Shown here: one piece after another, positions 14,423-28,571 of the stretch
Layout: each line of letters starts with the position of its first letter
How positions within the stretch are numbered: position 1 is the first letter of the stretch
Position numbers and translations under genes: made by a program
Source: an uncultured Pseudomonadota bacterium
Lineage (GTDB): Bacteria; Pseudomonadota; Gammaproteobacteria; Steroidobacterales; Steroidobacteraceae
Assembly: GCA_902826575.1 (NCBI GenBank)
Contig: CADEFJ010000014.1
Location: forward strand, 1 to 39,968
Length of the DNA: 39,968 nt
Direction: 5' to 3'
Notes under the pieces: generated by a model
Seen by the model: only the letters and a program-made list of their open reading frames with translations
Database searches by the model: none
Told to the model about the DNA's origin: nothing

Positions 14423-14854
14423 CTATACCCGTCGGCGTTCCACGGTCGCCATCGTGATGCGCGAGATGCAGGTGAGGTTGCCAGCCGGGTCGCGCAGCTC
14501 GATGCCCCAGACCTGGCTGCGCGCGCCGATGTGGTAAGGGCGAGTGGTGCCGGTGACGAGGCCGCTGGTCACCGGGCGCAGGTGATTGGCGTTGATCTCC
14601 TGCCCGAGGCACACGAAGCGGGTCGTATCGACGCAGCAGGTTGCCGCGGTGCTCGCGAGGGTTTCAGCCAGCGCCACGGATGCACCGCCGTGAAGCACGC
14701 CGAGCGGCTGGTGCGTGCGCTCGTCCACGGGCATCGTCGCGCGCATGAAATCGTCGCCGATCTCCGTGAAGCGGATGCCGAGATGGTCAACGAGGGTTCG
14801 CGGCGCCATTCCATTCAGTTGATCGAGTGTCGGCTGCTGGAACCAGATCGCCAT
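14423..14854 (-). CDS. YdiI/MenI-type hotdog-fold acyl-CoA thioesterase
   Basis: A 143-residue single hotdog domain closely resembling E. coli YdiI (MenI) and EntH: IWFQQPTLDQLN, IGDDFMRATMPVDERT, the active-site helix LGVLHGGASVALAET with the catalytic Glu, and INANHLRPV. Such enzymes hydrolyse aromatic or aliphatic acyl-CoAs; the natural substrate here is unknown. The ATG at 14854 lies two bases after the argH stop, so it is the last member of the arginine operon before the 14346-14418 hairpin. Menaquinone genes are not visible nearby, so the MenI name is not transferred. A link to acyl-CoA use in arginine synthesis is possible but unproven. Confidence 0.88.
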   Translation of the reverse strand: MAIWFQQPTLDQLNGMAPRTLVDHLGIRFTEIGDDFMRATMPVDERTHQPLGVLHGGASVALAETLASTAATCCVDTTRFVCLGQEINANHLRPVTSGLVTGTTRPYHIGARSQVWGIELRDPAGNLTCISRITMATVERRRV

Positions 14855-14856
14855 GC

Positions 14857-16044
14857 TCACTCCTTGCGCAAACGCGCGCCGATGCGTCGGTAGGCCTCGC
14901 GAAACGGGATGCCTTCCTTGACGACGAGCGCGTTGGCTTCCTCGGCTGCGCGGATCGCCGGGTCGAGTGTGATCCCCTGCGCACGGAAGCGCACCGCACC
15001 GATAGCGGCAGCCATGATGTCGAGCGACTGCAGCGCAGTGTCGATGCCGCGAAACAGCGGCAGCTTCAGCAGCTGCAGGTCGCGCTGATAACCCGAGGGC
15101 AGCTTCGCGAACAGGCCGAGTGCCTCGATGAGGTTCGCGTGTGCCGTCGCGGTGCGGCCGCGCACCAGCTCGAATACATCGGGATTGCGCTTCTGCGGCA
15201 TGATCGACGAGCCGGTGGTGAACTCGTCCGGCAACGTGACGAATGCAAACTCCTGCGTATAGAAGAGCAGCAGGTCGGCGGCGAGCCTGCCGAGATCCTG
15301 CATGGCGAGGGCGATCTCGAACAGCACTTGCGCCTCCGCCTTGCCGCGCGAGAGCTGCACGGCGGTGACCGGCTCGTGCACGACCGCGAATCCGAGCGCC
15401 GCGCGGGTGGCGTCCCGATCGAGCGGCAGGCCGGGCGTGCCGTAGCCGGCGGCGGAGCCGAGCGGGCTCTTGGCGTTGCGCCGATGCGCGAGACGCAGGC
15501 CTTCGGCGTCGTCGCGCAGTTCGGCGGAGAATCCGCCGGCCCACAACGCGACCGTGCTCGGCATCGCCTGTTGCATGTGGGTGTAGCCGGGCAGGGTGAT
15601 GCCGCCTTCACGCGCCGCAAGCGCATCGAGCGCGTCCGCGACCTGCAAGGCGCCCGCTCGCAGCTGCTCGATCGCATCGCGCAGGTACAGGCGCAGCGCG
15701 GTCAGGACCTGGTCGTTGCGGGAACGGCCGAGGTGCACGCGCCCGCCGGCGGCACCGATGCGCGCGGTAAGGCGCCGCTCGAGCGCGCTCTGGCCATCCT
15801 CATCGGCGAGTTCGACGTGCCATTCGCCGCGCGCGTGCGCCTCGCCGAGTGCGGTGAGACCGTCACGGATCGCCACGAAGTCGGCCTCGGTGAGCAACCC
15901 CTGCGCATGCAGCATCGCGGCGTGCGCGATCGAGGCCGCGACGTCGTAGCGCACCAGGCGCTCATCGAGCGCGTAGTCCTCGCCCGCGGTGTAGGCGAGC
16001 ACCCGGGCATCGAGCGGCGCGCCCTTGTCCCACAGGCGGGTCAT
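14857..16044 (-). CDS. argH: Argininosuccinate lyase ArgH (short form)
   Basis: ArgH cleaves argininosuccinate to arginine and fumarate. The signature GSSIMPQKRNPD (residues 278-289) carries the catalytic Ser loop; LGRSRNDQV and GYTHMQ (His156) complete the active site. The protein has 395 residues, about 60 fewer than typical ArgH (~457): it stops right after GIPFREAYRRIGARLRKE, so the usual C-terminal segment is missing and no ArgA acetyltransferase domain is fused, as occurs in some marine bacteria. The ATG at 16044 overlaps the argB stop (ATGA). It is the final biosynthetic gene of the operon. Confidence 0.94.
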   Translation of the reverse strand: MTRLWDKGAPLDARVLAYTAGEDYALDERLVRYDVAASIAHAAMLHAQGLLTEADFVAIRDGLTALGEAHARGEWHVELADEDGQSALERRLTARIGAAGGRVHLGRSRNDQVLTALRLYLRDAIEQLRAGALQVADALDALAAREGGITLPGYTHMQQAMPSTVALWAGGFSAELRDDAEGLRLAHRRNAKSPLGSAAGYGTPGLPLDRDATRAALGFAVVHEPVTAVQLSRGKAEAQVLFEIALAMQDLGRLAADLLLFYTQEFAFVTLPDEFTTGSSIMPQKRNPDVFELVRGRTATAHANLIEALGLFAKLPSGYQRDLQLLKLPLFRGIDTALQSLDIMAAAIGAVRFRAQGITLDPAIRAAEEANALVVKEGIPFREAYRRIGARLRKE

Positions 16045-16976
16045 GCGGCTCCGCTCTGCTGCTCGGCGCTGCTGAGGGCATTGATGTCGGCGACGATCAG
16101 CGTGCCCGTGCCCTCGTTGGTGAATACCTCCGCGAGGATGCTCTCCGGCGAGGTGTAGGCGATCACGTGCACGCGCCGCACGCCGCCGCGGATCGCGTCC
16201 TCGATCGCCTTGGCCTTCGGCAGCATGCCGTCCTTGATGCTGCCGTCCTCGCGCATCCGCCTGAGGCCGTTCAGGTCGGTGTACGAGACCACCGAGGACG
16301 GATCCTCGACGCGCTCGAGGATGCCGGGCGCCCCGGTGCAAAGGATCAGTTTCTCGGCGCCGAGCGCCGCGCCGACGGCCGCGGCTACGGTGTCGGCGTT
16401 GATGTTGAGCAGCACGCCACCGGCGTCGGCCGACAGCGGACTCACGACCGGCATCAGGCCGTTGTCGAGGAGCTTGCGCAGAACCGTGGTATCGACCGAG
16501 TCGATGTCGCCGACGAAACCGAAGTCGACGCTCTCGCCGTCGGGCATCTTCACGACCGGGCGCCGGTGCGCGGTGATGAGGCCCGCATCGACGCCGCTGA
16601 CGCCGACCGCGCTGATGTCGAGCTCACGGCATATGCCGAGAATGCGGGTATTGATGAGGCCGTTCAGCACCATCGAGGTGGCGTCGATCGATTTCTGGTC
16701 GGTGATGCGCCGGCCCTGCACCATGCGGGTCGGCACGCCGAGCGCCTCGGTGAGCTCGGTCAGCTGCGGACCGCCGCCGTGCACGAACACGACGCGCACA
16801 CCGAAGTAATGCAGGATCGCGATCTGCTCGATCAACGCGCGAGTGGCCTGCGCATCGCCGAATACGGCGCCGCCGGCCTTGATCACGAAGGTCTTGCCTT
16901 TGTACATGCGTATGTACGGCGCTGCGCTGCGCAGCGAACGGACGGCGAGGGCCTGGTCGGCGCGGTGCTTCATCAT
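16041..16976 (-). CDS. argB: N-acetylglutamate kinase ArgB (possibly N-acylglutamate kinase)
   Basis: An amino-acid-kinase-fold enzyme that phosphorylates N-acetyl- (or N-succinyl-) glutamate. Motifs: FVIKAGGAVF (Lys of the phosphate site), VFVHGGGPQLTEL, NINADTVAAAVG and IKDGMLPKAKAI. About 30 residues precede the kinase core (MKHRADQALAVRSLRSAAPY); such an N-terminal helix is typical of arginine-inhibited kinases, suggesting feedback control. At 311 residues it lacks the acetyltransferase domain fused to the kinase in Xanthomonas, so it does not supply the missing first step. Adjacent ATGs at 16976 and 16973 are both usable. It lies 8 bp after argF' and overlaps argH by 4 bp. Confidence 0.94.
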   Translation of the reverse strand: MMKHRADQALAVRSLRSAAPYIRMYKGKTFVIKAGGAVFGDAQATRALIEQIAILHYFGVRVVFVHGGGPQLTELTEALGVPTRMVQGRRITDQKSIDATSMVLNGLINTRILGICRELDISAVGVSGVDAGLITAHRRPVVKMPDGESVDFGFVGDIDSVDTTVLRKLLDNGLMPVVSPLSADAGGVLLNINADTVAAAVGAALGAEKLILCTGAPGILERVEDPSSVVSYTDLNGLRRMREDGSIKDGMLPKAKAIEDAIRGGVRRVHVIAYTSPESILAEVFTNEGTGTLIVADINALSSAEQQSGAA

Positions 16977-16984
16977 TGTGGTCT

Positions 16985-17989
16985 TCAAGCTCCCTGGGAA
17001 AGCATGCGGTGCAGGACCGCCATCTGCGCGGTCATGCGATTGTAAGCCTCGTGCCGCACTATGCTGCGCGGGCCGTCGAGCACGGCGTCCGTGATCGCCA
17101 CATTGCGACGCACGGGCAGGCAGTGCATGAGTCGGCAGTCGGGATCGGCCGGCTCGAACCACTGCGGCGTGACGCACCAGTCGGCAAGCCGCGCGCGCAG
17201 CATTGCATCCCCTTCGGCGTCACCATAGTGGGTGGTCGAGCCCCATTCCTTTGCATAGATCACCTGTGCGCCGGCCAGCGCATCGCTGCGCTCGCTCGTC
17301 TCGCGCACCGAGCCGCCGGAGACTGCAGCGGCAGCGCGCGCCTTTGCCATGACCGCGGGCGGCAGTGCGTAGCCGTCGGGGCGCAGCACCACGACCTCCA
17401 TGCCGCGCATCGCGGCCATGTGCACGGTGGCCGACGGCACTGCGAGCGGCAGCGCGCGCGGGTGCTGCACCCAAGACAGCACGAACTTCGCATGCCGCGG
17501 GACCTCGAGGTCGTCCATCGTCTTCCAGTCGGCGAGCGACTGGCACGGATGGTTCATCGCGGACTCGAGGTTGATCAGCGGCTTGTCGATGACCTCGGCC
17601 ATCGCCCCGAACTGGCTCTCGGCGAGATCGCGGGCGAGGTCCTTGCCCTCGGCGAACGCGCGGATACCGAGCGCATCGCAGTACGAGGCGAGCACCGGCA
17701 GGCCCTCGCGCACATGCTCCGCAGCCGCGCCGTTCATGATGGCGCCGAGTTGCGTCTCGAGCTGCCAGGTGCCCTGGCCGGGCGTGACCACGAACGAGCT
17801 GCCGCCGAGGCGCGCCATGCCCGCCTGGAACGAGGCGAGCGTGCGCAGCGACGGATTGAAGAACACGAGCCCGAGAATGCGGCCTGCGAGCGCGCGCGGC
17901 TCGGGATGCGTCTCGAGGCGGCGCGCGAGCTCGAGCAGCGACACGATCTCGTCGCGGCTGAAGTCGGCAAGGTCGAGGAAGCGATGCAT
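16985..17989 (-). CDS. argF': N-acylornithine carbamoyltransferase (AOTC/SOTC type)
   Basis: A 334-residue transcarbamylase of the Xanthomonas N-acetylornithine/Bacteroides N-succinylornithine subgroup, not ordinary ArgF. Evidence: VFFNPSLRT in place of the STRTR box, Trp75 in PGQGTWQLE (equivalent to the substrate Trp77 of Xanthomonas), NHPCQSLADW and MHCLPVRRNVAITDAV. The residue that decides substrate, Glu92 in the Xanthomonas enzyme and Pro90 in Bacteroides, is Ala90 here (NGAAAEH); published E92A mutants of the Xanthomonas enzyme prefer N-succinylornithine. The second Arg of the carbamoyl-phosphate box is Leu51. The ATG at 17989 fits the family start; a GTG at 18007 overlapping the argD stop (GTGA) would add six residues. 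Confidence 0.92.
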   Translation of the reverse strand: MHRFLDLADFSRDEIVSLLELARRLETHPEPRALAGRILGLVFFNPSLRTLASFQAGMARLGGSSFVVTPGQGTWQLETQLGAIMNGAAAEHVREGLPVLASYCDALGIRAFAEGKDLARDLAESQFGAMAEVIDKPLINLESAMNHPCQSLADWKTMDDLEVPRHAKFVLSWVQHPRALPLAVPSATVHMAAMRGMEVVVLRPDGYALPPAVMAKARAAAAVSGGSVRETSERSDALAGAQVIYAKEWGSTTHYGDAEGDAMLRARLADWCVTPQWFEPADPDCRLMHCLPVRRNVAITDAVLDGPRSIVRHEAYNRMTAQMAVLHRMLSQGA

Positions 17990-18003
17990 GGGTGAGCTGC
18001 GCG

Positions 18004-19131
18004 TCACAGCGACGCGAGCGCCTCCGCCAGCAGATCCACGTGCTGCTCCTCGAGGATATATGGCGGCAGCAGCCGCAGGACCTGCGGGTCGCCGCTCGTG
18101 CCGGTGAGGATATCGCGCGCGAGGAGCGCCGCCTGGATGTCCCTGGCGGGCCGGCTCATGCGCAGTCCGAGCAGGAAGCCCTCGCCCTGGAACCCGGTGA
18201 CCGGGCCGACCGCGCAGCGCGCGCGCACATATTCCGATACCCGCCGCACATTCGCGAGCAGCCCTTCGGATTCGATCGCCTCGATCACCGCCTCGATGGC
18301 CGCGCCCGCCATCGGGCCGCCGCCAAAGGTCGTGCCGAGCGAATCGAGCTTCACGGCCTGCGAGACGCGCGGTGTCATCAGCAGCGCGGCACACGGGAAG
18401 CCGTTGCCGAGGGCCTTCGCGGCCGTGATCATGTCGGGCCGCACGCCGTACAGGTCTGCCGCAAACGCATACCCCGTGCGGCCGACGCCGCATTGCACTT
18501 CGTCGAAAATCAGTATTGCGCCGACTTCGTCGCAGCGCCGGCGCAGTGCGTCGAGGAAACCCGCGCCGAGGTCGAACGCGCCGCCAACGCCCTGCACGGG
18601 CTCGACGATGACGGCTGCCGTATCCTCGGTCACGTGCTGCGCGATCGCGCCGTTCTCGCGCCGCGGGATCCACGATACATCGAAGGGCGCGCGCGGAAAC
18701 GCATGCCATTTCTGCATCGCGCCCCAGGTTACGGCGCCGGCCGCAGCCGTGCGCCCATGGAAGCTGCCTTCGATGGCGGCCACCTGGGCGCGACCGGTCA
18801 TGCGAAACGCCATCTTGAGCGCGTTCTCGTTGGCTTCGGCGCCGCTGTTGACGAAGAAGACGCTGTCGAAGGCACCACCGGCGAAACGCAGCAGTCTTCC
18901 GGCCGCGCGCTCGCGCACGGCCATCGGCACCGCGTTGCTCTGGAAATTGCAGGCAGCGGCCTGCTCCTGCAGCGCGCGGGTCCAGCCGGGATGTCCGTAG
19001 CCGAGGGCAGCAACCGCGTGTCCACCGTAAAGGTCGAGCACACGTCGACCATCGCGCGAATGCAGCCACACGCCTTCGGCGCGCTCGACCTCGAGCGGAT
19101 ACTGCGCGAAGACCGCGGCGAGGGCGCTCAT
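18004..19131 (-). CDS. argD: N-acylornithine aminotransferase ArgD
   Basis: A class III PLP aminotransferase that converts N-acylglutamate semialdehyde and glutamate to N-acylornithine. It has VNSGAEANENALKMA, GSFHGRTAAAG, IFDEVQCGVGRTG (cofactor Asp) and the Schiff-base Lys239 in TAAKALGNGFP. Length is 375 residues, slightly short for ArgD (~400). The ATG at 19131 overlaps the argC stop by 4 bp (ATGA). AstC-type enzymes share this family and act on succinylornithine, so the acyl group cannot be told from the sequence alone; the neighbouring transcarbamylase suggests that succinyl is possible. Confidence 0.93.
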   Translation of the reverse strand: MSALAAVFAQYPLEVERAEGVWLHSRDGRRVLDLYGGHAVAALGYGHPGWTRALQEQAAACNFQSNAVPMAVRERAAGRLLRFAGGAFDSVFFVNSGAEANENALKMAFRMTGRAQVAAIEGSFHGRTAAAGAVTWGAMQKWHAFPRAPFDVSWIPRRENGAIAQHVTEDTAAVIVEPVQGVGGAFDLGAGFLDALRRRCDEVGAILIFDEVQCGVGRTGYAFAADLYGVRPDMITAAKALGNGFPCAALLMTPRVSQAVKLDSLGTTFGGGPMAGAAIEAVIEAIESEGLLANVRRVSEYVRARCAVGPVTGFQGEGFLLGLRMSRPARDIQAALLARDILTGTSGDPQVLRLLPPYILEEQHVDLLAEALASL

Positions 19132-20207
19132 GTCCACCCCGCCGCCGGTGCCGTGAGGCCGGCGCTCTCGGGCAGGTCGCAAAGGCGGTTCATCCATTGC
19201 ACCGCGCCGCCGGCCGCGCCCTTGTTCAGGTTGTCGACCACGCAGGTGACGGCAACCGTGCGGCCGTTGCTCACCGCGGACAGCCGCGCGTAGTTGCTTG
19301 CGGCGACGTCCTTGACGTGGGGTGCCTCCGCCGCGACCTGCACGAACGGCGAGTCGCGATAGAAATCGTGAAGCGCCGCGAGCACCGCTGCGGTATCGGG
19401 CGCCGCTGCGCCACCGCTCGACTTCAGGCTTGCCTGCACGGTGACGTGGATGCCGCGTGCAAAGGGGCCTGAATGCGGCACGAACGAGAAGTCTGCGGCG
19501 ATGCCGCTCGCCGCGAGCGCACAGGCGGCAACCTCGGGCGTGTGCCGGTGCACGAGCGCGTTGTACGAGTAGTAATCACTGCTTCGCTGCGGATGGTGCG
19601 TGCCCTCGGACGGCTTGCGGCCCGATCCGGTGCTGCCGGTCACGGCGGCGACGAACAGTGTGGGCGTGACCAGGTCGAGCGCGAGCAGCGGCACGCTCGC
19701 GAGCAGCGTGGCGGTCGAGAAGCAGCCGGGATGCGCCACATGTCGGGTCGGCGCGCGCGCCAGATGCTCCGGCACCGCGCAGGTGAACTGCGCGAGTCGC
19801 CCCGGCGCGCCGTGCGCGTGCCGGTACACGGCCTCGTAAGCCCCGGCATCCCGGAAACGAAAATCGGCAGAGATGTCGACCACGCGCACATCGGAACCCG
19901 CAGCTTCGGCGCAGGTCAGCAGCCTGTCGATCAGCGCGGCGGACACGCCATGCGGTGCGGCGCCGAAGATCGCCGCGCGCGGAAGGCTGCCGCTAAGCGA
20001 CTCGATGTCGGACTGGGAGCTGAAACGCAGGTCGCCGAGGACCGGAGCGAGATGGCGGAAGGCCTTCGCGACCGGTTCGCCCGGCTGGCTGTCGGAGAGG
20101 ATGCCCGCGATCGCGAAGTGCGGATGCGCGGCGAGCAGGCGCAGCAGTTCGCCGGATACATAGCCGGTCCCGCCGAGCACGATCGCCGGAATGCGCCCGC
20201 TGCTCAT
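19128..20207 (-). CDS. argC: N-acyl-gamma-glutamyl-phosphate reductase ArgC
   Basis: An NADPH-dependent reductase that makes N-acylglutamate semialdehyde. An N-terminal nucleotide fold (IVLGGTGYVSGELLRLL, residues 9-25) is followed by the catalytic Cys162 in AHPGCFSTATLL and the dimer domain with GSTGSGRKPSEGTHHP and VPHSGPFARGIHVTV. The GCF-A/S-T-A and GTHHP variants resemble ArgC of Xanthomonas and Bacteroidetes more than the E. coli type, consistent with the transcarbamylase type. The 359-residue frame begins with an ATG at 20207 that overlaps the P-loop gene stop by 4 bp, and ends in a 4-bp overlap with argD. Confidence 0.95.
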   Translation of the reverse strand: MSSGRIPAIVLGGTGYVSGELLRLLAAHPHFAIAGILSDSQPGEPVAKAFRHLAPVLGDLRFSSQSDIESLSGSLPRAAIFGAAPHGVSAALIDRLLTCAEAAGSDVRVVDISADFRFRDAGAYEAVYRHAHGAPGRLAQFTCAVPEHLARAPTRHVAHPGCFSTATLLASVPLLALDLVTPTLFVAAVTGSTGSGRKPSEGTHHPQRSSDYYSYNALVHRHTPEVAACALAASGIAADFSFVPHSGPFARGIHVTVQASLKSSGGAAAPDTAAVLAALHDFYRDSPFVQVAAEAPHVKDVAASNYARLSAVSNGRTVAVTCVVDNLNKGAAGGAVQWMNRLCDLPESAGLTAPAAGWT

Positions 20208-21283
20208 CCTGCGAGCGCCTCCACGGGTTTGGCGTGCAGTCCGACTGCCTCGATGATGTGATCGCCGAGTGCGGCGCCAGCGCTGAGTGCGTTGAATGCC
20301 GCGACGTTCATCTGCTGGCGGATGATATCGACGCCGACCGCGTTGTCGGTGGCCGGTCCGGTGACGACGCAGGGTTCGATGCCGAATCGCTCGCGCAGCA
20401 TCTTGACGCCGCCCCATGCCGCGACCGGATCGTTGGCCGACAGCACCACGCCGGTGAGCGAGCGCTTGATGTCGTCGCAGGAGAGGATCGAGTCGACGCC
20501 GTAGGTGCCCATCATGCCGTCGCCCAGCTCGAACACGATCACGTCGGGCTTGCCCGCCGCGAGTTCGGTGAGCATCGTGCGCGTGAGCGCAGGCCCCGTC
20601 TGCGGCGTGGTAGTGATGACGCCGAGGTCGGTGAAAATCATCGTATTGCGCGCGCCGGCGTCCGCCATCGCCAGGATGTCGCGGCGGAGCGAAACACCGG
20701 TCGCCTTGAACGCATCGACGACGAGGCCGCGATGGCGCATGCGGCTCACGATCGAGCAGGCGGCGGCCGTCTTGCCGGCTTCCATGCAGGTGCCGGCGAG
20801 CGCAACCACCGGTACGCCCCGGGTGTCGAGCGCCGCGCCGTAGTCGAGGTTGCGATACCCGGCTCTCGCCGGCACGCCGATGCGCTCGCCGAGGTAGGGG
20901 AACTGCAGCACGACGCCGAGCACGCGGCAGTCGAACGGCGTGCCCTTGTCGGGATTCACCGAGTCGCAAATGCCGAGCACGCCACCGATATTGAGCATCT
21001 GGATCACGTCGCCGGCCTTGAGCGCGGTCGGCACATGGCCCGAGTAGCCGAACAGTGCCTTGCGATGGCCGAGCGCTCCGACCACGATGTCGCCCTTGCC
21101 AAGCTTCGCCATGCGCCCGCTCGTGAGCTCGAGCGTGTTGTAGGTCGACTTGTTCGTCAGGATCTCGACGACAATGATCACGCCTTCCTCGGACGGGATG
21201 TCGGTGGAGATGCGCAGTTCGCGCGACAGGCCCGCGGCTTGCGTGATCGAGGCGATCTTGTCGACGACGACAGACTTCATCAT
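20204..21283 (-). CDS. Unrecognised SIMIBI-like P-loop protein embedded in the arginine operon
   Basis: A 359-residue protein I cannot assign to a named arginine enzyme. Residues ~1-155 are beta-rich with repeated Gly turns (GDIVVGALGHRKALFGYSG; KAGDVIQMLNIGG). Residues ~158-345 form a P-loop domain: Walker A GTCMEAGKT (164-172, Lys171), then FKATG (192-196), TDLG (218-221), FELGDG (251-256), GVVLSANDPVAAWGG and VVTGPATDNAVG. The GTxxxxGKT plus KATG pattern recalls BioD/CobQ and DUF1611 proteins; some DUF1611 members are D-glutamate N-acetyltransferases. The ATG at 21283 shares a base with the argG stop, and the stop overlaps argC by 4 bp. As the operon lacks an N-acylglutamate synthase and a deacylase, a role in one of these steps or in regulation is inferred. 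Confidence 0.85.
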   Translation of the reverse strand: MMKSVVVDKIASITQAAGLSRELRISTDIPSEEGVIIVVEILTNKSTYNTLELTSGRMAKLGKGDIVVGALGHRKALFGYSGHVPTALKAGDVIQMLNIGGVLGICDSVNPDKGTPFDCRVLGVVLQFPYLGERIGVPARAGYRNLDYGAALDTRGVPVVALAGTCMEAGKTAAACSIVSRMRHRGLVVDAFKATGVSLRRDILAMADAGARNTMIFTDLGVITTTPQTGPALTRTMLTELAAGKPDVIVFELGDGMMGTYGVDSILSCDDIKRSLTGVVLSANDPVAAWGGVKMLRERFGIEPCVVTGPATDNAVGVDIIRQQMNVAAFNALSAGAALGDHIIEAVGLHAKPVEALAG

Positions 21284-22497
21284 CAGCGGGCACCCCCAGC
21301 GAGTTTGCCGGCGCGCGTGTGGAACACGCCCGGCAGTGCGACGAGCTTCGAGAAACCGAGCGCGTCGGCCGCGGACCATTCCCCGACCGACTCGCCATAG
21401 ACGCCCTTCGAGGCGGCCATCAACGACCACGGCGAACTCACGCCTTCGACGAACAGGCTGCCGGGGCGCAGCAGGACGGACACCGTGCCGCTCACGCGTT
21501 CCTGCGAGGAGAGCAGCAGCGCCTCGATGTCGCGACACACCGGGTCGAGCAGCTGTCCCTCGTGCACGAGATCGCCATACGGCTGCGCCACCGATTCCTT
21601 GATGCGCTGCTGGCGCGCTGTCAGGACGAGCTTCTCGAGCTCGCGATGCGCCGTGAGCAGCACTTCCGCGGCGGGCGCCTCGAAGGCGACCCGGCCCTTG
21701 GTGCCGATGATCGTGTCGCCAAGATGGACGCCGCGGCCGATGCCGAACGGCGCGGCCAGCGCCTCGAGCGCCTCGATGACCTCGACGGGCGACAGCTTGC
21801 GCCCGTCGACACCGACCGGGCGGCCCGCCGCGAACTCGATCGTGTGGCGCTGCGGCGCGCGCGGGCTCGTGAACGCGTCCTTCGACAGCACCCACTGCTC
21901 TTCCGGAATGCTGCCTTCCGACGTGAGCGTTTCCTTGCCGCCGATCGTCACCCCCCACAAACCGCGGTTGATCGAATAGGCGGCGCCGAACGGCGGCACC
22001 GGCAGATTGCGCGCCTGCAGGTACTCGAGCTCCTCCTGGCGCTGGAACGCCCGGTCGCGCACCGGCGCGATGATTTCAAGTTCGGGCGCGAGCGTGCGCA
22101 GCGCGACCTCGAAGCGCACCTGGTCGTTGCCGGCCGCGGTGCAGCCGTGCGCGATGCTGCGAGTACCGAGCTTTTCCGCCATGCGCGCGATCGTCTGCGC
22201 CTGCATGACGCGTTCGGCGCCGACGCACAGCGGGTAGAGCTGGCCGCGACGCACGTTGCCCATGATCAGGAAGCGCAGCACCTGCTCGAAGTAGTCGGCG
22301 CGCGCATCGACCTGATGGTGCGCGACGGCGCCGAGGGCGAGGGCGCGCTCCTTGAGCGTGCGCGCGGCGGCGGCATCGATGCCGCCGGTGTCCACGGTGA
22401 CGGTGATCACCGGCCGGCCGTACTCTTCAGCCAGCCAGGGCACGAGGAACGAGGTGTCGAGTCCGCCCGAATAGGCGAGGACGATGGGTTGGGTCAT
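21283..22497 (-). CDS. argG: Argininosuccinate synthase ArgG (Xanthomonas/Bacteroides type)
   Basis: ArgG joins citrulline and aspartate with ATP to form argininosuccinate. The N-type ATP pyrophosphatase motif SGGLDTS is at residues 10-16, with AHGCTAAGNDQVRFE, SINRGLWGVTIGGKETL and GDTIIGTKGRVAFEAP further on. These blocks follow the Bacteroidetes/Xanthomonas ArgG subfamily rather than the E. coli or Pseudomonas types. Length is 404 residues. The ATG at 22497 is 10 bp downstream of the argR stop. The product stop shares one base with the P-loop gene (TGATG). As first enzyme gene of the operon it would be controlled by the ARG box before argR. Confidence 0.95.
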   Translation of the reverse strand: MTQPIVLAYSGGLDTSFLVPWLAEEYGRPVITVTVDTGGIDAAAARTLKERALALGAVAHHQVDARADYFEQVLRFLIMGNVRRGQLYPLCVGAERVMQAQTIARMAEKLGTRSIAHGCTAAGNDQVRFEVALRTLAPELEIIAPVRDRAFQRQEELEYLQARNLPVPPFGAAYSINRGLWGVTIGGKETLTSEGSIPEEQWVLSKDAFTSPRAPQRHTIEFAAGRPVGVDGRKLSPVEVIEALEALAAPFGIGRGVHLGDTIIGTKGRVAFEAPAAEVLLTAHRELEKLVLTARQQRIKESVAQPYGDLVHEGQLLDPVCRDIEALLLSSQERVSGTVSVLLRPGSLFVEGVSSPWSLMAASKGVYGESVGEWSAADALGFSKLVALPGVFHTRAGKLAGGAR

Positions 22498-22507
22498 GGT
22501 TTCGGGA

Positions 22508-22948
22508 TCAGATGTGGAAGAGGGAACGCAGGCGCCTGACTAGCGCGGCCTGCTCGCGAGCGCCGGCCGTCGCGATGAAAATCGTGTCGTCACCGGAAAT
22601 CGTGCCGGCAACCTCCGGCCAGTTCGCCTGGTCGATCGCGACTGCGACACTTTGCGCGGCGCCGACCGACGTGCGCAGTACGGCCAGCGCCGGGCCCGCC
22701 AGGCGCAGGTCGCGCACGAACTGCGCGAGTGCGGTGAAATCCCCGCCGGCGCGGGCATCATCGGTCGAGGGCAGAACATAACCGTCGGCCGCCTTGAGCA
22801 CGCCGATTTCGCGCAGGTCCCGGCTGACCGAGGATTGCGTGACCGCATGGCCCTCGGCCTTCAGCAGGCGCACGAGGTCGGCCTGCTTGCGCACGGTACC
22901 GGTGCGCAAGAGGCGAGTGATGGCGTGATGACGGGCGACCGGCTGCAT
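22508..22948 (-). CDS. argR: Arginine repressor ArgR
   Basis: ArgR is an arginine-dependent hexameric DNA-binding regulator. The N-terminal winged helix contains VTQSSVSRDLREIGV (the VTQ-x2-VSRD recognition helix) and the C-terminal domain has the arginine-binding GTISGDDTIFIA. The sequence is closer in style to AhrC-type ArgR (VTQATVSRD) than to E. coli ArgR. The ATG at 22948 is selected because MQPVARHHAITRLL aligns with the usual ArgR start and a promoter with +1 near 22952 is visible; the ATG at 22960 would add MRLI. Length is 146 residues. It heads the arginine operon, implying autoregulation and coordinated repression of the whole pathway. Confidence 0.94.
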   Translation of the reverse strand: MQPVARHHAITRLLRTGTVRKQADLVRLLKAEGHAVTQSSVSRDLREIGVLKAADGYVLPSTDDARAGGDFTALAQFVRDLRLAGPALAVLRTSVGAAQSVAVAIDQANWPEVAGTISGDDTIFIATAGAREQAALVRRLRSLFHI

Positions 22949-22988
22949 AATCAACCGCATCTTTGCATAAAAATGCGCGTGCAGTCAA
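22942..22988 (-). promoter_or_regulatory. argR-arg operon promoter with ARG boxes
   Basis: TTTGCATAAAAATGCGCG (22962-22979) matches the ARG-box core TGAATAAAAATKC at 12 of 13 positions, in the Bacillus-like form. A second, weaker half-box TGCAT-N4-A lies at 22942-22959, centred 20 bp away, the usual pairing distance. TTGACT (22983-22988) and AAAGAT (22959-22964) form a plausible -35/-10 pair with 18-bp spacing, so ArgR binding would block the polymerase. Confidence 0.65.
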
Positions 22989-22994
22989 GCGGAA

Positions 22995-23090
22995 AGCGAA
23001 CAGCGAGTAGCGAACAGATTACGGCCAGAAGGCCAGCCTGCCGGCGCGGAGCGCCTCTGGCTGCAATCTGTTCGCCGCCCGTTGTTCGCT
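22995..23090. repeat. Palindromic intergenic repeat, copy 2 (related to 13599)
   Basis: The left arm (22995-23030: GCGAACA, GCGAGTA, GCGAACA, GATTACG, GCCAGAA) repeats the 13599 element with 33 of 36 bases. The right arm is its reverse complement: TCTGGCTGCAATCTGTTCGC (23056-23075) pairs with 23011-23028 at about 18 of 20, and a terminal GTTGTTCGCT closes a large stem. It fills the gap between tamB and argR and touches the tamB stop, so it could act as a terminator or RNA-stabilising structure. An origin as a non-autonomous mobile repeat is inferred. Confidence 0.7.
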
Positions 23091-26000
23091 ATTTTTCTAT
23101 CGTGTATTCCAGATCCGCGCTCTGCACCGCGCCCGATTCGAGCTTGATCGTCCAGTCGTCGCCCAGCGTGTAGCGCATCTTGATCGTGTTGATCGCCTCG
23201 GTGAGGCTGATGCCGTAGCTGACGAACAGGCGCGGGGTGAGATAACGACCTAGCACCAGCGAGGTTTCGTTGTTGAGCGACGACTCGAGGCTCACGTCCT
23301 CGAGACCGACGATCTCGCCGAGCTGCTGCGCGAGGATGGCGCCGCCCTGTACGGCAAAGGGATTGCTGCTCCGGCCGCCTTCCTGCGCCTGCACGGACTC
23401 GAGCGAGCCGCCGGCAATCAGCAGCGAAAGGATCTGCGACTGCGGAATCTGCGGATCGGAGAACAGCGTGAGACGCGGCGCACGCAGTGTGCCGCGTATG
23501 TTGGCGCCGGCCGTGACGTCCGGAAACTCGCGGCTCGCGCGGATGTCGATGCCGGGATCGCCAAGCGGCCCGTTGTTGAAGATCAGCCGGCCGTGTTCGA
23601 TGTCGAGCCGCCTGCCGAACGCCACATAGCGACCCTCGGCCACATTCAGCTCGCCGGTGCCGCGCGCCACGTCGTTCGCGTCCGTGCGCGCCTCGAGCGC
23701 ACCGGTCAGTCGGCCGGACAGGCCGAAGGTGTCGATGGTGACGCGGTCACCCAGCACGATGTTGACGCGGGTCGTCACGGTGAAGCGCTTCGACGGGTCG
23801 ACCTCCGGCTCGCCGACGATGCGCTCGTCCGCGGACGCGAAGACCGCACCGGTGATATCGGCCGGGTCGAGGCGCGCGTTCGGCACGAGCACGCTGCCGG
23901 TGACATCGATGTGCCGGCCGCTGACGTCGAACACGAGGTCGGGCGAGGCAAAGACGCGTGCCTCGGGCACGTTTGCAATGCGAAGGTTCTCGCCCTTCAT
24001 CGTCAGCTTGCCGAAAGGCAGGCCCTTGCGCCAGGTGAGTGCGCCGCCGGCATTCAGGCTGCCGTCCCCCGCGGTGGCCGAACTCTCGAGCGTCAGCGTG
24101 TTCTCGAGGAAATGCGCGTCCAGCGTTACCGCACGCAGCGGCAGGTTCACCTGGTAGAAATCGAACTGCCCGTCGCGGATCGTGAGCAGGCCCTCGAAGC
24201 GCGGCGCACCGAGCGTGCCGGACAGTTGCAGGTGGGTCGCGAGGCGGCCGGATGAGCGATCGATGGTGCCGACCAGCACGGCAATGAAGCCGAGCGAATC
24301 CGTACGCGCCTCGAGCTCGCCCTGCAGCGGCCAGTCGCGCCATTCGTCACCGCTGCGCGCGATCAGGGCATTGCCCGTGAGGTTGCCGGAGGCGCCGGCG
24401 TCGAGCCTGGCATCGAGGACGATCGAGTCGGCGGTCGCCGATCCGGTGATGACACCAGCGCCGATCACGGTGACGTCCTCGCGATTGTTCGCGAGCCGCC
24501 GCCGTGCCTGCACGTCGAGCAGGTCCGCGCGCAGGCTGCCCTGCCACGGGCCGCTGCCGCGGGCGCCCGCGGCGGCCTCGATGTCGACCGAGCCCTCGTA
24601 GGTCACGCCCGGCGTGAGACCCACCGTGAACGTACTGATCGGCAGCTTCTGCGCGGAAAGCGTCACGGCCCAGTTCCCGGGATCGTGGTTGCCGGTCGCG
24701 CAGAGTTCGGCGATGGCGCCGCGCAGGCAGGTCGTCTCGAGTCGCTGCGAGTCGCGCGAGAGCGTGAGCAGCGAGGGCGCGGCGAGGCGCAGTGCCGCCT
24801 CCTCGCCGTTCACGAGGTCGATGCCCTGGAACCGCAGTTGCCAGGTACCTGCCTGAAAGTTGCCGCTGCCACGCGCGTCGACCACGACCGGCGCGGCACT
24901 CACCGCCATCTGCACGTCGTGCCGGTCGGTCGTGCCCTGCGCGGTGATGGCGAAGGTGTCGATGTGCCGCGCACCCCGCGTGAGCCCCCTGGCCCGCAGG
25001 TCGACGTCGAGCGGTTGGCCGGCGCGGCCGTCGAAGCGCAAGCGGCCCTCGATGCCGTCGATCTGCACGCCGGCGTAGTCGATGGCTGTACCCCGCAGCG
25101 TGGCATCGAGCGCGGGGGAGTCGCGCGATCCGCTCACCGTGCCGCGCGCGGCCAGCCTGCCGGTGGCGCCGGCATCGAGCAGGGCGAGATCGTCCGCGTC
25201 GAAATCGAAACGCAGCGCGTAGGCCTCCGGCGAAATGCCACCCTCGAGTTGCGCATGCGCGGCTCCGAGGCGCATGTCGAAGTCATGGAAGCTCAGCATC
25301 GCGCCACGCCGGATGACGCGCCCGCCGCCGCTGGCGCGACCGCCGCGCACCTGGCCGCCGAGGCGCGTCAAGCGCAGGTCGAGATTGCCCCCGGGAGAGA
25401 AACCTTCGCCGCGCGCGTCGATGTCGAAGCTGACGCGCCCGGGCAGGCGCTCATCGAGCAGGCCGGTGTTCATGCCGGTGATGCGGCCACCGACCTGCCA
25501 GGCTTCCGCGGGCTGCCACTGCACGGCGCCGCGCAGGTCGCCGCGACCCTCGTAGGCGCCGACCCGCAACACGTCGGCATCGAGCCGGTCGCCGGCGAGC
25601 CGGCCTTCGAGCGTGACCTGCATCGGCTCGAGGCCTGCCGCGGTGACGGCGCCGCTCGCGGTGATTGCATAGGGCATCGTGCCCGCCAGGTGATAGTTGC
25701 CCTGGGCGCTGTGCACGGCAGGCTCCGCGGCAGGCAGCGGCCAGCGAAACTCGCGCCATTGGCCAGTCAGGTCGAGGGACGGGCCGGCTTCGTCGATGCG
25801 GATCAGGCCGGCAACTGTCGCCAGCGCGCCCGAGCCCTGGTGGCGAAACTGCGCGTGGCGCACGGCCAGGGTTTTCGCCGCGTACTTGCCGTTGAACTGC
25901 ACGTCGAAATTGCCGGCTTCGAGACCCGCGGGATGCAGCACGCCATCCGCGGCAATGCCATCCGTGGTGACGCCGATCCGCACGCGACCGTCGATCTCGC

Positions 26001-26814
26001 CCAGTACGCCGCCGCCGCCGAAGTCCGCGATGTCGAGCTGGCTGACCTGCGCATTGCCGGTGATCTTCCAGCCGCTCGTGAGAGTCGCGGCAGCGCCGGC
26101 CACCGTGGCGCGAAATGGCGCTTCCACGCTGCCCGTGAACGGCAGTCTGTCGAGGTCGCCCTCACCGGTGACATTCGCGATCCAGCGCGTGTCCTTCGGC
26201 GCGAACCATTCCGCGCGGCCGCTTGCGTCGATCCGCATCGGATCGGCGGCGCGCACCGTGCCGTTGGCCGTGAGGTCCATGCCCTGGAAGCGGGCGGCCG
26301 CGCTGAACACCCGGATCGAGCGGTGGCGCACGACGCCGCTCGCGCGGATGTCGGCAAACTCGTTGCGGGTGCCGTTCGGCGCCACCAGCGTGAGCAGTCC
26401 GGCGCGCGCATCGTCCGTCTCGATGCGCAGCAGCCGCGGCAGGAACTTCGGCGGACCCTTGCGCGGCCGCTTCGGCACCGTCCTGACCTCGATCAGGAGG
26501 TTCCGCGCGCGCACCTCGGGCACGTCGATCTTCTGCCACAGCAGGGGCGCCACCGCGAGCCGCGCGTGGATGTCCTCGGCGACGAGGTGCACGCGCTCAT
26601 GGTCGAGTTCGAAGCGCGACAGCGTGAAGCCACCGGCGATCGTGCCGCTGACCGTGCCGATGTCGAGTGTCACGGGGCCCACCCGATGCGGCACCCGCGC
26701 GACGATCATCGCGAGTCCCTGCGGCGTGAAGGCGATGAAATGGATGAGTGCGAACGGCAGCGCGCACAACACGGCGATCGCGAGCACAAGCAGGATGCTG
26801 ACGGGGCGGGTCAT
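23089..26814 (-). CDS. tamB: Translocation and assembly module inner-membrane protein TamB
   Basis: A 1241-residue AsmA-like bridge protein: one N-terminal membrane helix (PVSILLVLAIAVLCALPFAL, residues 4-23), a very long beta-helical periplasmic body with repeated Gly/Asp-rich strands, and the C-terminal TamB domain (roughly the last 350 residues) ending in LGDDWTIKLESGAVQSADLEYT. With TamA it spans the envelope and is implicated in outer-membrane protein assembly and phospholipid transport. The ATG at 26814 shares one base with the tamA stop. The same frame stays open antisense-free beyond the start into tamA, but that part is out of register with any protein. A palindromic repeat follows the stop. 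Confidence 0.96.
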   Translation of the reverse strand: MTRPVSILLVLAIAVLCALPFALIHFIAFTPQGLAMIVARVPHRVGPVTLDIGTVSGTIAGGFTLSRFELDHERVHLVAEDIHARLAVAPLLWQKIDVPEVRARNLLIEVRTVPKRPRKGPPKFLPRLLRIETDDARAGLLTLVAPNGTRNEFADIRASGVVRHRSIRVFSAAARFQGMDLTANGTVRAADPMRIDASGRAEWFAPKDTRWIANVTGEGDLDRLPFTGSVEAPFRATVAGAAATLTSGWKITGNAQVSQLDIADFGGGGVLGEIDGRVRIGVTTDGIAADGVLHPAGLEAGNFDVQFNGKYAAKTLAVRHAQFRHQGSGALATVAGLIRIDEAGPSLDLTGQWREFRWPLPAAEPAVHSAQGNYHLAGTMPYAITASGAVTAAGLEPMQVTLEGRLAGDRLDADVLRVGAYEGRGDLRGAVQWQPAEAWQVGGRITGMNTGLLDERLPGRVSFDIDARGEGFSPGGNLDLRLTRLGGQVRGGRASGGGRVIRRGAMLSFHDFDMRLGAAHAQLEGGISPEAYALRFDFDADDLALLDAGATGRLAARGTVSGSRDSPALDATLRGTAIDYAGVQIDGIEGRLRFDGRAGQPLDVDLRARGLTRGARHIDTFAITAQGTTDRHDVQMAVSAAPVVVDARGSGNFQAGTWQLRFQGIDLVNGEEAALRLAAPSLLTLSRDSQRLETTCLRGAIAELCATGNHDPGNWAVTLSAQKLPISTFTVGLTPGVTYEGSVDIEAAAGARGSGPWQGSLRADLLDVQARRRLANNREDVTVIGAGVITGSATADSIVLDARLDAGASGNLTGNALIARSGDEWRDWPLQGELEARTDSLGFIAVLVGTIDRSSGRLATHLQLSGTLGAPRFEGLLTIRDGQFDFYQVNLPLRAVTLDAHFLENTLTLESSATAGDGSLNAGGALTWRKGLPFGKLTMKGENLRIANVPEARVFASPDLVFDVSGRHIDVTGSVLVPNARLDPADITGAVFASADERIVGEPEVDPSKRFTVTTRVNIVLGDRVTIDTFGLSGRLTGALEARTDANDVARGTGELNVAEGRYVAFGRRLDIEHGRLIFNNGPLGDPGIDIRASREFPDVTAGANIRGTLRAPRLTLFSDPQIPQSQILSLLIAGGSLESVQAQEGGRSSNPFAVQGGAILAQQLGEIVGLEDVSLESSLNNETSLVLGRYLTPRLFVSYGISLTEAINTIKMRYTLGDDWTIKLESGAVQSADLEYTIEK

Positions 26815-28571
26815 CAGAGCTTCGGCGAGAAGTTGACGTGCAGTCGCGGCGTCGCGCCAGGTTCCGATAGCGCCTGCGCGACATCGAAGCCCACCGTCGC
26901 GATCGGCAGGCGGAAGCGCAGGCCGATGCCCGCCGAATACTCGAGGCCGTCGCCGAAGCTGTTGAAGGCATTGCCCGCGTCGACGAACACGGCGAGACCG
27001 AGGTTGCGCGGCAGGTCGCGAATCACCTCGAGCGTGCCGGCAACCATGTGTTTGCCGCCGGTCTTCTCGCCGTTCTCGTCGACGGGCGACAGGTCGTTGA
27101 AGCCGAAGCCGCGCACGCTGCGGTCGCCGCCGGCAAAGAAGCGCTCCGAACCCGGGACGCCGTCGAAGTTCTGCGCCCATGTGGTACCGAACTCCGCGCG
27201 CAGCAGCAGATGCCACCTTGATGCGATCGGGAACACGTGCTCGGTGGCTGCGAGCAACTGCAGGTAGTCGGAATCGGCGCCGAGGGCGGTATGTGAGCCG
27301 CGCAACTCGGCATAGAGCTGCCGCCCGAACAGCGGCTCGCCCAGGTAGCCCTTGGGCACCGAGGCGATGCTGATGCCGGGGATGAAAAGCAGCGAATCGA
27401 CACGCGACGTGGCGTCCTCGGTGATCGCATGCACGAGGCGGGTGTAGTAGACGCGCTGCCAGCGATGCGGCACACGTGTGATGCCGGCACGTGCCTCGGT
27501 GTTGTAGGTGTCGAGGTCGGCGCGAACCTGGTGTTCCCAGGTGCCTTCGAGCTCGAATTTCTCGAGCGCAGGATCTCCGATCGGCCAGATATAGCGACCG
27601 GATATCTTCTGCGAGACTTCCGCGAGCTTCAGTTCGGCGCGGAAGCGATGCCCGAGCGTATTGACGATGCGGTTGTCCCAGCTGATCGTGCCGCGCACTT
27701 CGGTGTCGGTGCCGTAACCGACGCCGAGTGTCCAGCGCGATTGCCGGTTCGGGGTCGCGGCGATGCGGATCGGCACCGTGAGCGTGGCGGGGTCGCGATC
27801 CAGCGGCCGCACTTCGACCGTGGCGAAGTAGGCGCTGTCGTCGAGCGCAAACTGCGTGCGCAGCAACTCGGTGGCGTCGAACGGCTGGCCCTCCTCGTAG
27901 CGCAGGAAGCGGCGCATCAGTTCGGGGCGGATGACTTCCTGCGCGATCTCGGTCGGACCGAACCGGTAGCGCTCGCCGGTCTCGAACACGATGTGCGCGC
28001 TCGCGGTGCGGTTCGCCGGATCGACCAGCAGTTCGTGGCGCAGCAGGCGCCCGTCGAGATAGCCGTAGGCTGCCGCGCTGCGCTGCAGGTCGCTCTTCAC
28101 CTGCTCGTACTCGCCGTGATGCAGCTGCGCCCCTTGCCGCAGCGGCATGCCCGCGAGCAGGTTGGTGAACACCGGATCGTTGGCACGCGGCCCGGTGACC
28201 TGCACATCGACGGTGGTGAGGATCACCGGCGGCCCGGGCACGATGTGGATTTCGATGCGCCAGTCCTGGCCGTTGGGCCGCGCCTCCACGCTCGAGCGGA
28301 CCGTCGGCTCGTAATAGCCGAACGGGCGCAGCGCCGCGCGCACTTCGCGCTCGGCGCGCTCGTGCAGGCGATCGATCGTGTCCTCGCGCAGCCGGTCGCG
28401 ATCCTTGTAGCGCTCGAGGGACAGGAGCGCGAGCACGTTGCGGCGCACGGGACCCTCGACGCCGTCGACCACGATGTCGATGTCGGCCTGTGCCGATGTC
28501 GCGGCGAGCGCGCACAGCACGAGCAGGCATCGCGCCGTGGCCGACCGGGTGTCGCGCTGGGTTCCTGGCAT
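26814..28571 (-). CDS. tamA: Translocation and assembly module outer-membrane protein TamA
   Basis: A BamA/Omp85-family protein (585 residues). A signal peptide (CLLVLCALAATSAQA, residues 15-29) is followed by about three POTRA domains (residues ~30-260) and a 16-strand barrel with the lid-lock motif SVRGFGF in the L6 loop (FFAGGDRSVRGFGFNDLSP). The final strand ends LHVNFSPKL rather than in an aromatic residue. It partners TamB, whose gene follows immediately. The gene lies 34 bp after the NRDE gene, so the pair may be read as part of the nudC-DUF4126-NRDE-tamAB transcript. No strong Shine-Dalgarno sequence is visible. Confidence 0.95.
   Translation of the reverse strand: MPGTQRDTRSATARCLLVLCALAATSAQADIDIVVDGVEGPVRRNVLALLSLERYKDRDRLREDTIDRLHERAEREVRAALRPFGYYEPTVRSSVEARPNGQDWRIEIHIVPGPPVILTTVDVQVTGPRANDPVFTNLLAGMPLRQGAQLHHGEYEQVKSDLQRSAAAYGYLDGRLLRHELLVDPANRTASAHIVFETGERYRFGPTEIAQEVIRPELMRRFLRYEEGQPFDATELLRTQFALDDSAYFATVEVRPLDRDPATLTVPIRIAATPNRQSRWTLGVGYGTDTEVRGTISWDNRIVNTLGHRFRAELKLAEVSQKISGRYIWPIGDPALEKFELEGTWEHQVRADLDTYNTEARAGITRVPHRWQRVYYTRLVHAITEDATSRVDSLLFIPGISIASVPKGYLGEPLFGRQLYAELRGSHTALGADSDYLQLLAATEHVFPIASRWHLLLRAEFGTTWAQNFDGVPGSERFFAGGDRSVRGFGFNDLSPVDENGEKTGGKHMVAGTLEVIRDLPRNLGLAVFVDAGNAFNSFGDGLEYSAGIGLRFRLPIATVGFDVAQALSEPGATPRLHVNFSPKL

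Follow-up and report, generated by a model that had tools for sequence, protein, structure and literature searches.

An arginine operon in a 39,968-nucleotide stretch of DNA from an uncultured member of the Steroidobacteraceae (Gammaproteobacteria; assembly GCA_902826575.1, contig CADEFJ010000014.1, positions 1 to 39,968; hereafter the window, meaning the whole stretch analyzed) carries as its third gene the frame for a 359-residue P-loop protein, here called X. We propose, with a probability of about two in three, that X opens the pathway as an N-acyl-L-glutamate synthase, the acyl group most likely being succinyl, and that it does so with a P-loop domain of the dethiobiotin synthetase (BioD) kind. 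We infer this activity from the position of X in the operon, its conservation, the fact that it and known synthases exclude one another, a predicted P-loop fold, and the carbamoyltransferase encoded nearby (ArgF'), which has succinyl-type residues at two of the three positions that distinguish its acyl specificity. The reaction is probably a familiar one, performed by a protein family that has gone unrecognized.

X is a conserved member of an arginine operon

The genes of the operon, all on the minus strand, are:

22508..22960, minus strand: argR, arginine repressor (best match TIGR01529, below its cut-off)
21283..22497, minus strand: argG, argininosuccinate synthase (NCBIfam, above curated cut-off)
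20204..21283, minus strand: X, 359-residue two-domain protein (beta-rich N-terminal half and C-terminal P-loop domain), candidate N-succinyl-L-glutamate synthase; ATG at 21283
19128..20207, minus strand: argC, N-acyl-gamma-glutamyl-phosphate reductase (NCBIfam, above curated cut-off)
18004..19131, minus strand: argD, N-acylornithine aminotransferase (best matches, below cut-offs)
16985..18007, minus strand: argF', N-acylornithine carbamoyltransferase with residues of the succinyl type at two of the three diagnostic positions (matches the N-acetylornithine carbamoyltransferase model NF003384 at 338 versus a cut-off of 288 bits)
16041..16976, minus strand: argB, N-acylglutamate kinase, bare (TIGR00761), without an acetyltransferase domain (NCBIfam, above curated cut-off)
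14857..16044, minus strand: argH, argininosuccinate lyase (NCBIfam, above curated cut-off)

An earlier note on this DNA had placed a gene at 20204-21283, and its open frame, its 359-residue product and 80 retained relatives bear this out, with the strand corrected to minus (the plus strand is also open across the same interval). The note had also described a continuous, overlapped operon. The order argR-argG-X-argC-argD-argF'-argB-argH, with X between argG and argC, stands, as do overlaps at five of seven junctions (1 base at argG/X; 4 bases each at X/argC, argC/argD, argD/argF' and argB/argH, the argD/argF' overlap assuming a GTG start), but there are gaps of 10 bases at argR/argG and 8 bases at argF'/argB. 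Its statement that the operon holds no ArgA, ArgJ, ArgE or fused N-acetylglutamate synthase domain agrees with the NCBIfam search of the seven arginine genes beside X, argB being a bare kinase. The genome that holds the window is a 3.1 Mb draft of 225 contigs, 89% complete.

A scan for relatives of X at one genome per species found 184, of which 80 were retained, mostly in metagenome-assembled Gammaproteobacteria, several of them labelled Steroidobacteraceae. Across these 80 relatives X is 76-90% identical to the window protein, a conservation similar to that of argG. The gene-neighborhood survey that the earlier note had suggested found argG upstream of X in 79 of 80 loci and argC downstream in 78 of 80; the misses are L057, which is without argG, and L033 and L041, whose contigs stop 101 and 122 bases past X. 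L057 (9463-13132) is the sole locus of the 80 in which X and argC are flanked by argR and argB and no argG, argD or argF' match is present. Two metagenome-assembled records titled Klebsiella pneumoniae (L007 and L036) carry the X operon (X 82% identical), and their organism name looks wrong.

A class-wide sample of 369 genomes held 28 that match the X profile: 5 in the order of the window genome (E <1e-170), 4 in three other families (E 1.0e-89 to 1.9e-102), and 19 with distant relatives only (E 4.3e-16 to 8.0e-28). All 4 genomes from the three other families have argG-X-argC, with X 41-46% identical. The operon of one of them, G288, reads argD-argF'-argB-argH-argG-X-argC, an order that differs from the window; arginine genes surround X in G040 and G118, and in G234 the X contig is 4.8 kb long. 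For the distant relatives, no match to the window arginine genes was found in 21 loci (approximately 3-4 kb each) or in six loci read more widely. X is a P-loop protein locked into the arginine operon, as the earlier note had described it. We recognized no paper about X among the open-licence literature matches listed, and the available part of a 2018 gap-filling paper (PMC5764234) contains no occurrence of N-acetylglutamate, DUF1611 or P-loop.

X and known first-step synthases occur in different genomes

An order-level sample of 78 genomes (X called at E <1e-160) contained X in 48 genomes and the PF04768 synthase domain in 18; none had both and 12 had neither. X and PF04768 span 8 and 7 families, respectively, none of them shared, and PF04768 was found only in genomes without X. 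The earlier note had held that a conventional argA or argJ elsewhere in the genome would speak against its proposal, and neither appeared: ArgJ (PF01960) was found in 0 of 78 genomes of the order and classical ArgA above its cut-off also in 0 of 78, the subthreshold ArgA matches being the kinase half at the argB place and assorted short GNATs. In the class-wide sample of 369 genomes, ArgA was above cut-off in 249, all of them among the 360 that are not X genomes, and in none of the 9 X genomes. The nine X genomes gave ArgA matches that reach only E 4.5e-31 to 4.3e-48, and each of the 19 genomes that have distant X relatives only gave a best ArgA match at E 1.2e-122 or better. The ArgJ and NAT-domain searches covered the 78 genomes of the order, and the four divergent X genomes were searched for ArgA alone. 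Since X and the known synthases exclude one another, and ArgA is strongly matched in all 19 distant-relative genomes, X behaves as a synthase replacement and its distant relatives do not.

ArgF' was above cut-off in 65 of the 78 genomes (47 with X, 17 with the synthase domain, and G406), and one more X genome, G395, gave a partial match. Eleven of the 12 genomes without X and without the synthase domain are also without an ArgF' match above cut-off; in the twelfth, G406, argF' lies on a contig of only 3,119 bases, and the synthase of this genome may therefore be simply unassembled. The eleven belong to families f190 and f193 (for example G388 and G379) and may be arginine auxotrophs, the ordinary ornithine carbamoyltransferase having been outside the search.

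The PF04768 domain is that of the Xanthomonas-type argB::NAT fusion, which is accompanied by N-acetylornithine carbamoyltransferase (AOTCase). This fusion fills the first step in sister families, and its cluster, like that of X, has an ArgF'-type carbamoyltransferase; it differs in that a GNAT-type domain is fused to argB, in that the ArgF' is acetyl-type, and in that it never occurs with X in the 78 genomes. Five synthase-domain loci that we read have the arrangement argF'-argG-(argE')-argB::NAT-argC-argH, with proteins 24-43% identical to those beside X. An M20-family argE' stands between argG and argB in 4 of the 5 and is missing from the L144 cluster; the argE' of L127 is above the cut-off of the acetylornithine deacetylase model. 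In L144 (7643-8767; synthase-domain genome G433), a 374-residue protein after argH looks by eye like an aspartoacylase/AstE-type deacylase.

ArgF' residues point to a succinylated intermediate

According to the available text of PMC4581275, AOTCase has Glu92, Asn185 and Lys302 where N-succinylornithine carbamoyltransferase (SOTCase) has A/S/P/V/Q, P and V/I/E. The available text of PMC7311316 adds that the enzyme comes to prefer succinyl when the first position holds S, P, A or V, and the same portions of both papers report, from 2007 work, that a single mutation swaps carbamoyltransferase specificity. With residue numbering checked on a printed AOTCase chain, the window argF' has at these positions:

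17720..17722, minus strand: Ala codon at the AOTCase Glu92 position, associated with succinyl preference
17447..17449, minus strand: Pro codon at the AOTCase Asn185 position (Pro in SOTCase)
17096..17098, minus strand: Ala codon at the AOTCase Lys302 position (V/I/E in SOTCase; Ala is neither)

The succinyl residues, A/P/V at 92 with Pro at 185, are present in 86 of 86 readable ArgF' rows beside X, window included, and these are not 86 independent genomes, L063 and L156 apparently being the same genome and other doubles being possible. The X-side rows number 87, one of which (L052) is unreadable; outside them are 13 of the 80 X loci, mostly at contig ends, without an ArgF' match at E 1e-15 or better. 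The triplets beside X are APA (71 rows), APV (11), PPE (2), VPE (1) and AP with an unread third residue (1), so that the third residue, where it is not Ala, is V in 11 and E in 3 of the 85 rows and never the Lys of AOTCase. Synthase-domain genomes have ENK (13), ENQ (3) or EN with an unread third residue (1), making 17 of 17 read, and ENK was also found in G406; acetyl-type ArgF' was found only in these genomes. The eighteenth synthase-domain genome, G427, has a divergent paralogue only (L146), with residues KPS. This L146 (G427:C257) is a second, divergent ArgF'-like carbamoyltransferase of a kind also matched at G386:C20, G167:C5 and G420:C22, and in the latter three genomes the divergent match lies approximately 0.5 kb from an M20 match.

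Because of the ArgF' residues, succinyl appears the most likely acyl group of the X pathway. Succinyl-CoA had been one of several options listed in the earlier note, and the residues now favor succinyl among the acyl groups. Since the third position fails the SOTCase list, we describe ArgF' as likely to work like a SOTCase and do not file it as one.

X has a predicted BioD-like P-loop domain

Three motifs mark the P-loop domain of X:

20768..20794, minus strand: Walker A GTCMEAGKT, X residues 164-172; none of the nine varies among the 81 sequences of alignment A5
20696..20710, minus strand: FKATG, X residues 192-196; K193, T195 and G196 do not vary among the 38 sequences of alignment A2 (X and distant relatives); aligned with the dethiobiotin synthetase K..TG
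20516..20533, minus strand: FELGDG, X residues 251-256, Walker-B-like; E252 invariant in A2

Residues invariant in A2 include G164, G170, K171, T172, K193, T195, G196, D202, F217 and E252. Pfam and NCBIfam scans of X gave no match above cut-off and none to GNAT families; DUF1611 (PF07755) was the best Pfam match, at 14.5 bits and E 0.024 and under the gathering score of 25. The Pfam scan gave no match to PF01960 (ArgJ), and NCBIfam gave none up to E 1 to NF041892 (DgcN) or to bioD. No PDB match came from sequence searches that used X or its close alignment as query, and a profile of the wider family had as its top PDB match a dethiobiotin synthetase (E 3e-4), spanning the P-loop and K..TG.

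A first structure model of X was poor (mean predicted local distance difference test score (pLDDT) 67). A second model, made with the 81-sequence alignment, had a mean pLDDT of 75.7 and a predicted template-modelling score (pTM) of 0.67, with the P-loop domain better predicted than the beta-rich N-terminal part and weak stretches at residues 48-57, 128-143 and 218-224. Dethiobiotin synthetases topped the Foldseek matches of the second model (E about 1e-5, target TM 0.55-0.60), FtsY/Ffh and HypB were also matched, and CTP synthetase was at rank 40; a viral structure library gave a single match under E 0.001, a CTP synthase (6e-4). The predicted P-loop domain has the BioD fold, with P-loop and K..TG aligned, and X differs from the matched BioD chains (approximately 220 residues) by its extra beta-rich N-terminal half. 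The P-loop domain of X is predicted to be of the dethiobiotin-synthetase kind, not a GNAT or ArgJ fold. The invariant Walker A and the second model agree with the earlier description of a P-loop protein with a beta-rich N-terminal half. The family link proposed with it came out divided: BioD is the closest named fold, but the tie to DUF1611 is weak, at 14.5 of the 25 bits and by profile comparison.

Aligned by hhalign with DUF1611/DgcN profiles, X alone reached 2% probability and the wider alignment A2 37% over 175 columns. The DUF1611 structure 2obn_A was at rank 37 with the first model of X and outside the 50 matches listed with the second. One X relative, L090, passes PF07755 at 29.5 bits. 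A genuine DUF1611 member, L211, has a close PDB relative in 7xrj and scores 518.7 bits against the 480-bit cut-off of NF041892, a model named N-acetyltransferase DgcN, in line with the earlier statement that some DUF1611 proteins are N-acetyltransferases. We take the substrate of DgcN to be D-glutamate; a DgcN-DgcA route from D-Glu to L-Glu is mentioned in the available part of PMC10845958. DgcN, like X, has a C-terminal P-loop domain, possibly a related one, with a K/R-x-TG motif that is similar by eye, and differs in passing the PF07755 and NF041892 tests that X fails; membership of X in DUF1611/DgcN was not supported by Pfam, NCBIfam or the profile comparison. Since X is subthreshold in these tests, sequence comparison makes it at most a distant relative of DUF1611/DgcN in the P-loop domain. 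Besides X, the genome G017 holds two matches to PF07755 above cut-off (E 8.8e-75 and 3.1e-68, on contigs C28 and C3), and X therefore cannot be taken simply for a displaced DgcN.

An unnamed DUF1611-like family, A4, aligns with X over nearly its full length (hhalign 99.9%, E 1.5e-33, 305 columns). It differs from X in that no arginine gene was recognized in the A4 loci read, where the A4 gene adjoins an M20 hydrolase in 7 of 7 loci besides the reference L117 (L236-L241 and L245); five of these seven were picked knowing that M20 was nearby, leaving L241 and L245 as the free tests. Three further loci fetched with the A4 set are another branch or have unresolved frames and stand outside the seven. 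A third protein of approximately 200-234 residues lies beside M20 in 6 of the 7 (as at L236:3242-6106), and the first and third proteins of L236 had no NCBIfam match. The A4 and M20 genes look like a set that would put an acyl group on an amino compound and take it off again.

A succinylated route to arginine

In the pathway we propose, X would succinylate the amino nitrogen of glutamate, with succinyl-CoA as the donor of first choice because of analogy with other synthases and DgcN; succinate plus ATP, acting through an acyl phosphate, would be a close second. ArgB, ArgC and ArgD would then lead to N-succinylornithine, which ArgF' would carbamoylate to N-succinylcitrulline. Citrulline would be released by a desuccinylase, probably the DapE that also serves lysine synthesis, and ArgG and ArgH would turn it into arginine.

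DapE may be the remover of the succinyl group in X genomes, a suggestion that comes from gene inventory and chemistry only. Of the 78 genomes of the order, 62 have a DapE above cut-off, among them 44 of the 48 with X. Inventories of PF01546 and PF00583 were made in 15 chosen genomes, 10 of them with X. In one X genome, G401 (100% complete), the PF01546 search gave DapE alone (552 versus a cut-off of 362 bits). Another, G373 (1.6 Mb, 98% complete), has DapE and one M20 protein passing no cut-off among the matches listed, and its one PF00583 match is RimI, above cut-off. On an argE elsewhere in the genome, which the earlier note had counted against its proposal, the outcome was mixed, G401 having only DapE among PF01546 matches and G416 an acetylornithine deacetylase in addition to a DapE above cut-off.

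We also looked for a deacylase among the argB-argH insertions of three loci and rejected the candidates by eye, L012 holding a methyltransferase-like and other frames and L061 and L065 one long, probably spurious frame each. None was seen in the first 70 residues of the unlabelled frames of nine other X loci.

Weighing the alternatives

Several observations weigh against X as an N-succinyl-L-glutamate synthase. Of the 48 X genomes, 13 have a stand-alone GNAT with weak, subthreshold similarity to the ArgA acetyltransferase half (E 3.6e-7 to 4.4e-4), but such a GNAT is also present in 13 of the 30 genomes without X. PF00583 does not cover every GNAT, and its inventory is clean for G373 only: G378 has two matches, one without a name, and the eight other X genomes have 5 to 17. 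The Fisher values for exclusion between X and the synthase domain, 4e-10 and 3e-5, overstate the case, as species are not independent. G331, from the same family as two divergent X genomes, is without X and without ArgA above cut-off. At the third ArgF' position, 71 of 85 readable rows, window included, have Ala, which is outside the published V/I/E. The acetylornithine deacetylase of the X genome G416 is above its cut-off (NF003474, 539 versus 460 bits), which fits acetylated intermediates and speaks against a uniform succinyl route, or else shows a second use. Finally, one entire cluster excludes the other, argE' being mostly swapped along with the synthase, and X could therefore be taking the place of argE' instead of the synthase.

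This last point bears on the reading of X as the pathway deacylase in the argE' place, with an unrecognized protein elsewhere in the genome as synthase. The excluded cluster does hold both the synthase domain and, in 4 of 5 loci, an M20 argE' beside argG; the sole PF01546 hydrolase of G401 is DapE; and a family related to X is paired with an M20 hydrolase. Set against these are the canonical Walker A and predicted ligase-like, not hydrolase, fold of X, the restriction of the G373 PF00583 matches to RimI, and the wide presence of DapE as a ready desuccinylase, and we consider the deacylase reading very doubtful. A regulator, chaperone or assembly factor, in which an energy-sensing P-loop protein would accompany an unseen enzyme making N-acylglutamate, draws on a fold class that holds the GTPases FtsY and HypB, both among the structural matches, and on the operon that X shares with argR. 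It leaves the exclusion with known synthases and the empty first step unexplained, as well as the keeping of X across families despite different gene order, and is, like the deacylase, a less likely reading that we hold to be highly improbable. Among the options in the earlier note, a new type of N-acylglutamate synthase is the best reading of X, given its linkage and the missing synthases.

Within a synthase role, the acyl group and the mechanism can each be read differently. X could make N-acetyl-L-glutamate, as a new family in a pathway of ordinary acetylated intermediates, with the ArgF' residues misreporting the acyl group. The linkage and exclusion fit this equally well, and the G416 deacetylase, the largely Ala third residue, and ArgF' scores that exceed the NF003384 (acetylornithine) cut-off in 47 of the order's 48 X genomes agree with it; A/P/V at 92 with Pro at 185 in every readable row, residues tied to succinyl preference in the available text of PMC4581275 and PMC7311316, and the confinement of acetyl-type ArgF' to synthase-domain genomes and G406 argue for succinyl, so that an acetyl route seems unlikely. 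An ATP-dependent amide ligase joining succinate or another acid to glutamate, instead of an acyl-CoA transferase, is a rival in mechanism only. The canonical GxxxxGKT and the K..TG aligned with dethiobiotin synthetase, the lead of dethiobiotin synthetases among structural matches and the presence there of CTP synthetase all favor it, and the modeled fold speaks almost as well for a ligase as for succinyl-CoA transfer. Against it, a P-loop domain related to that of X may be present in DgcN, which NCBIfam names an N-acetyltransferase, in which case the scaffold may also serve acyl transfer, and the known synthases of the step, the LysW route aside, use acyl-CoA or acetylornithine (in part from the available text of PMC4490483). 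We regard the ligase as a serious candidate, if on balance a rather unlikely one, and keep X as a probable N-succinyl-L-glutamate synthase, with succinyl-CoA as the preferred donor.

Other genes in the window

After argH, 14423-14845 encodes a hotdog thioesterase (TIGR00369, above cut-off), and a similar protein was seen by eye after argH in L151. Upstream of argR, 23089-28571 holds two large minus-strand genes that by eye look like a TamA/TamB-like outer-membrane translocation pair.

Implications for arginine synthesis

Several unrelated enzyme solutions are known for the first step of arginine synthesis. The available part of a 2015 review (PMC4490483) states that the gene for the glutamate-succinylating enzyme was then not identified. 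Bacteroidetes make arginine through succinylated intermediates, and BT3761 has been proposed for glutamate succinylation in Bacteroides (PMC7311316, in its available text). The step predicted for BT3761, in a succinylated pathway with SOTCase, is the one we predict for X; BT3761, which we set beside X by description only, differs in being >50% identical to the synthase Cabys_1732 (same text of PMC7311316).

We put forward tentatively, at somewhat less than even odds, a wider proposal: that X founds a new P-loop N-succinyl-L-glutamate synthase family serving a Gammaproteobacterial succinylated arginine pathway, that DapE desuccinylates in both lysine and arginine synthesis, and that the wider family, including the M20-paired branch, is an amino-acid N-acylating P-loop superfamily. 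A P-loop synthase, if true, would be a new structural answer to the first step of arginine synthesis, and would fill in the missing step for entire gammaproteobacterial families otherwise mistakable for arginine auxotrophs. It would also extend succinylated arginine synthesis beyond Bacteroidetes and offer a first clue to what a broad, as yet unnamed, protein family does.

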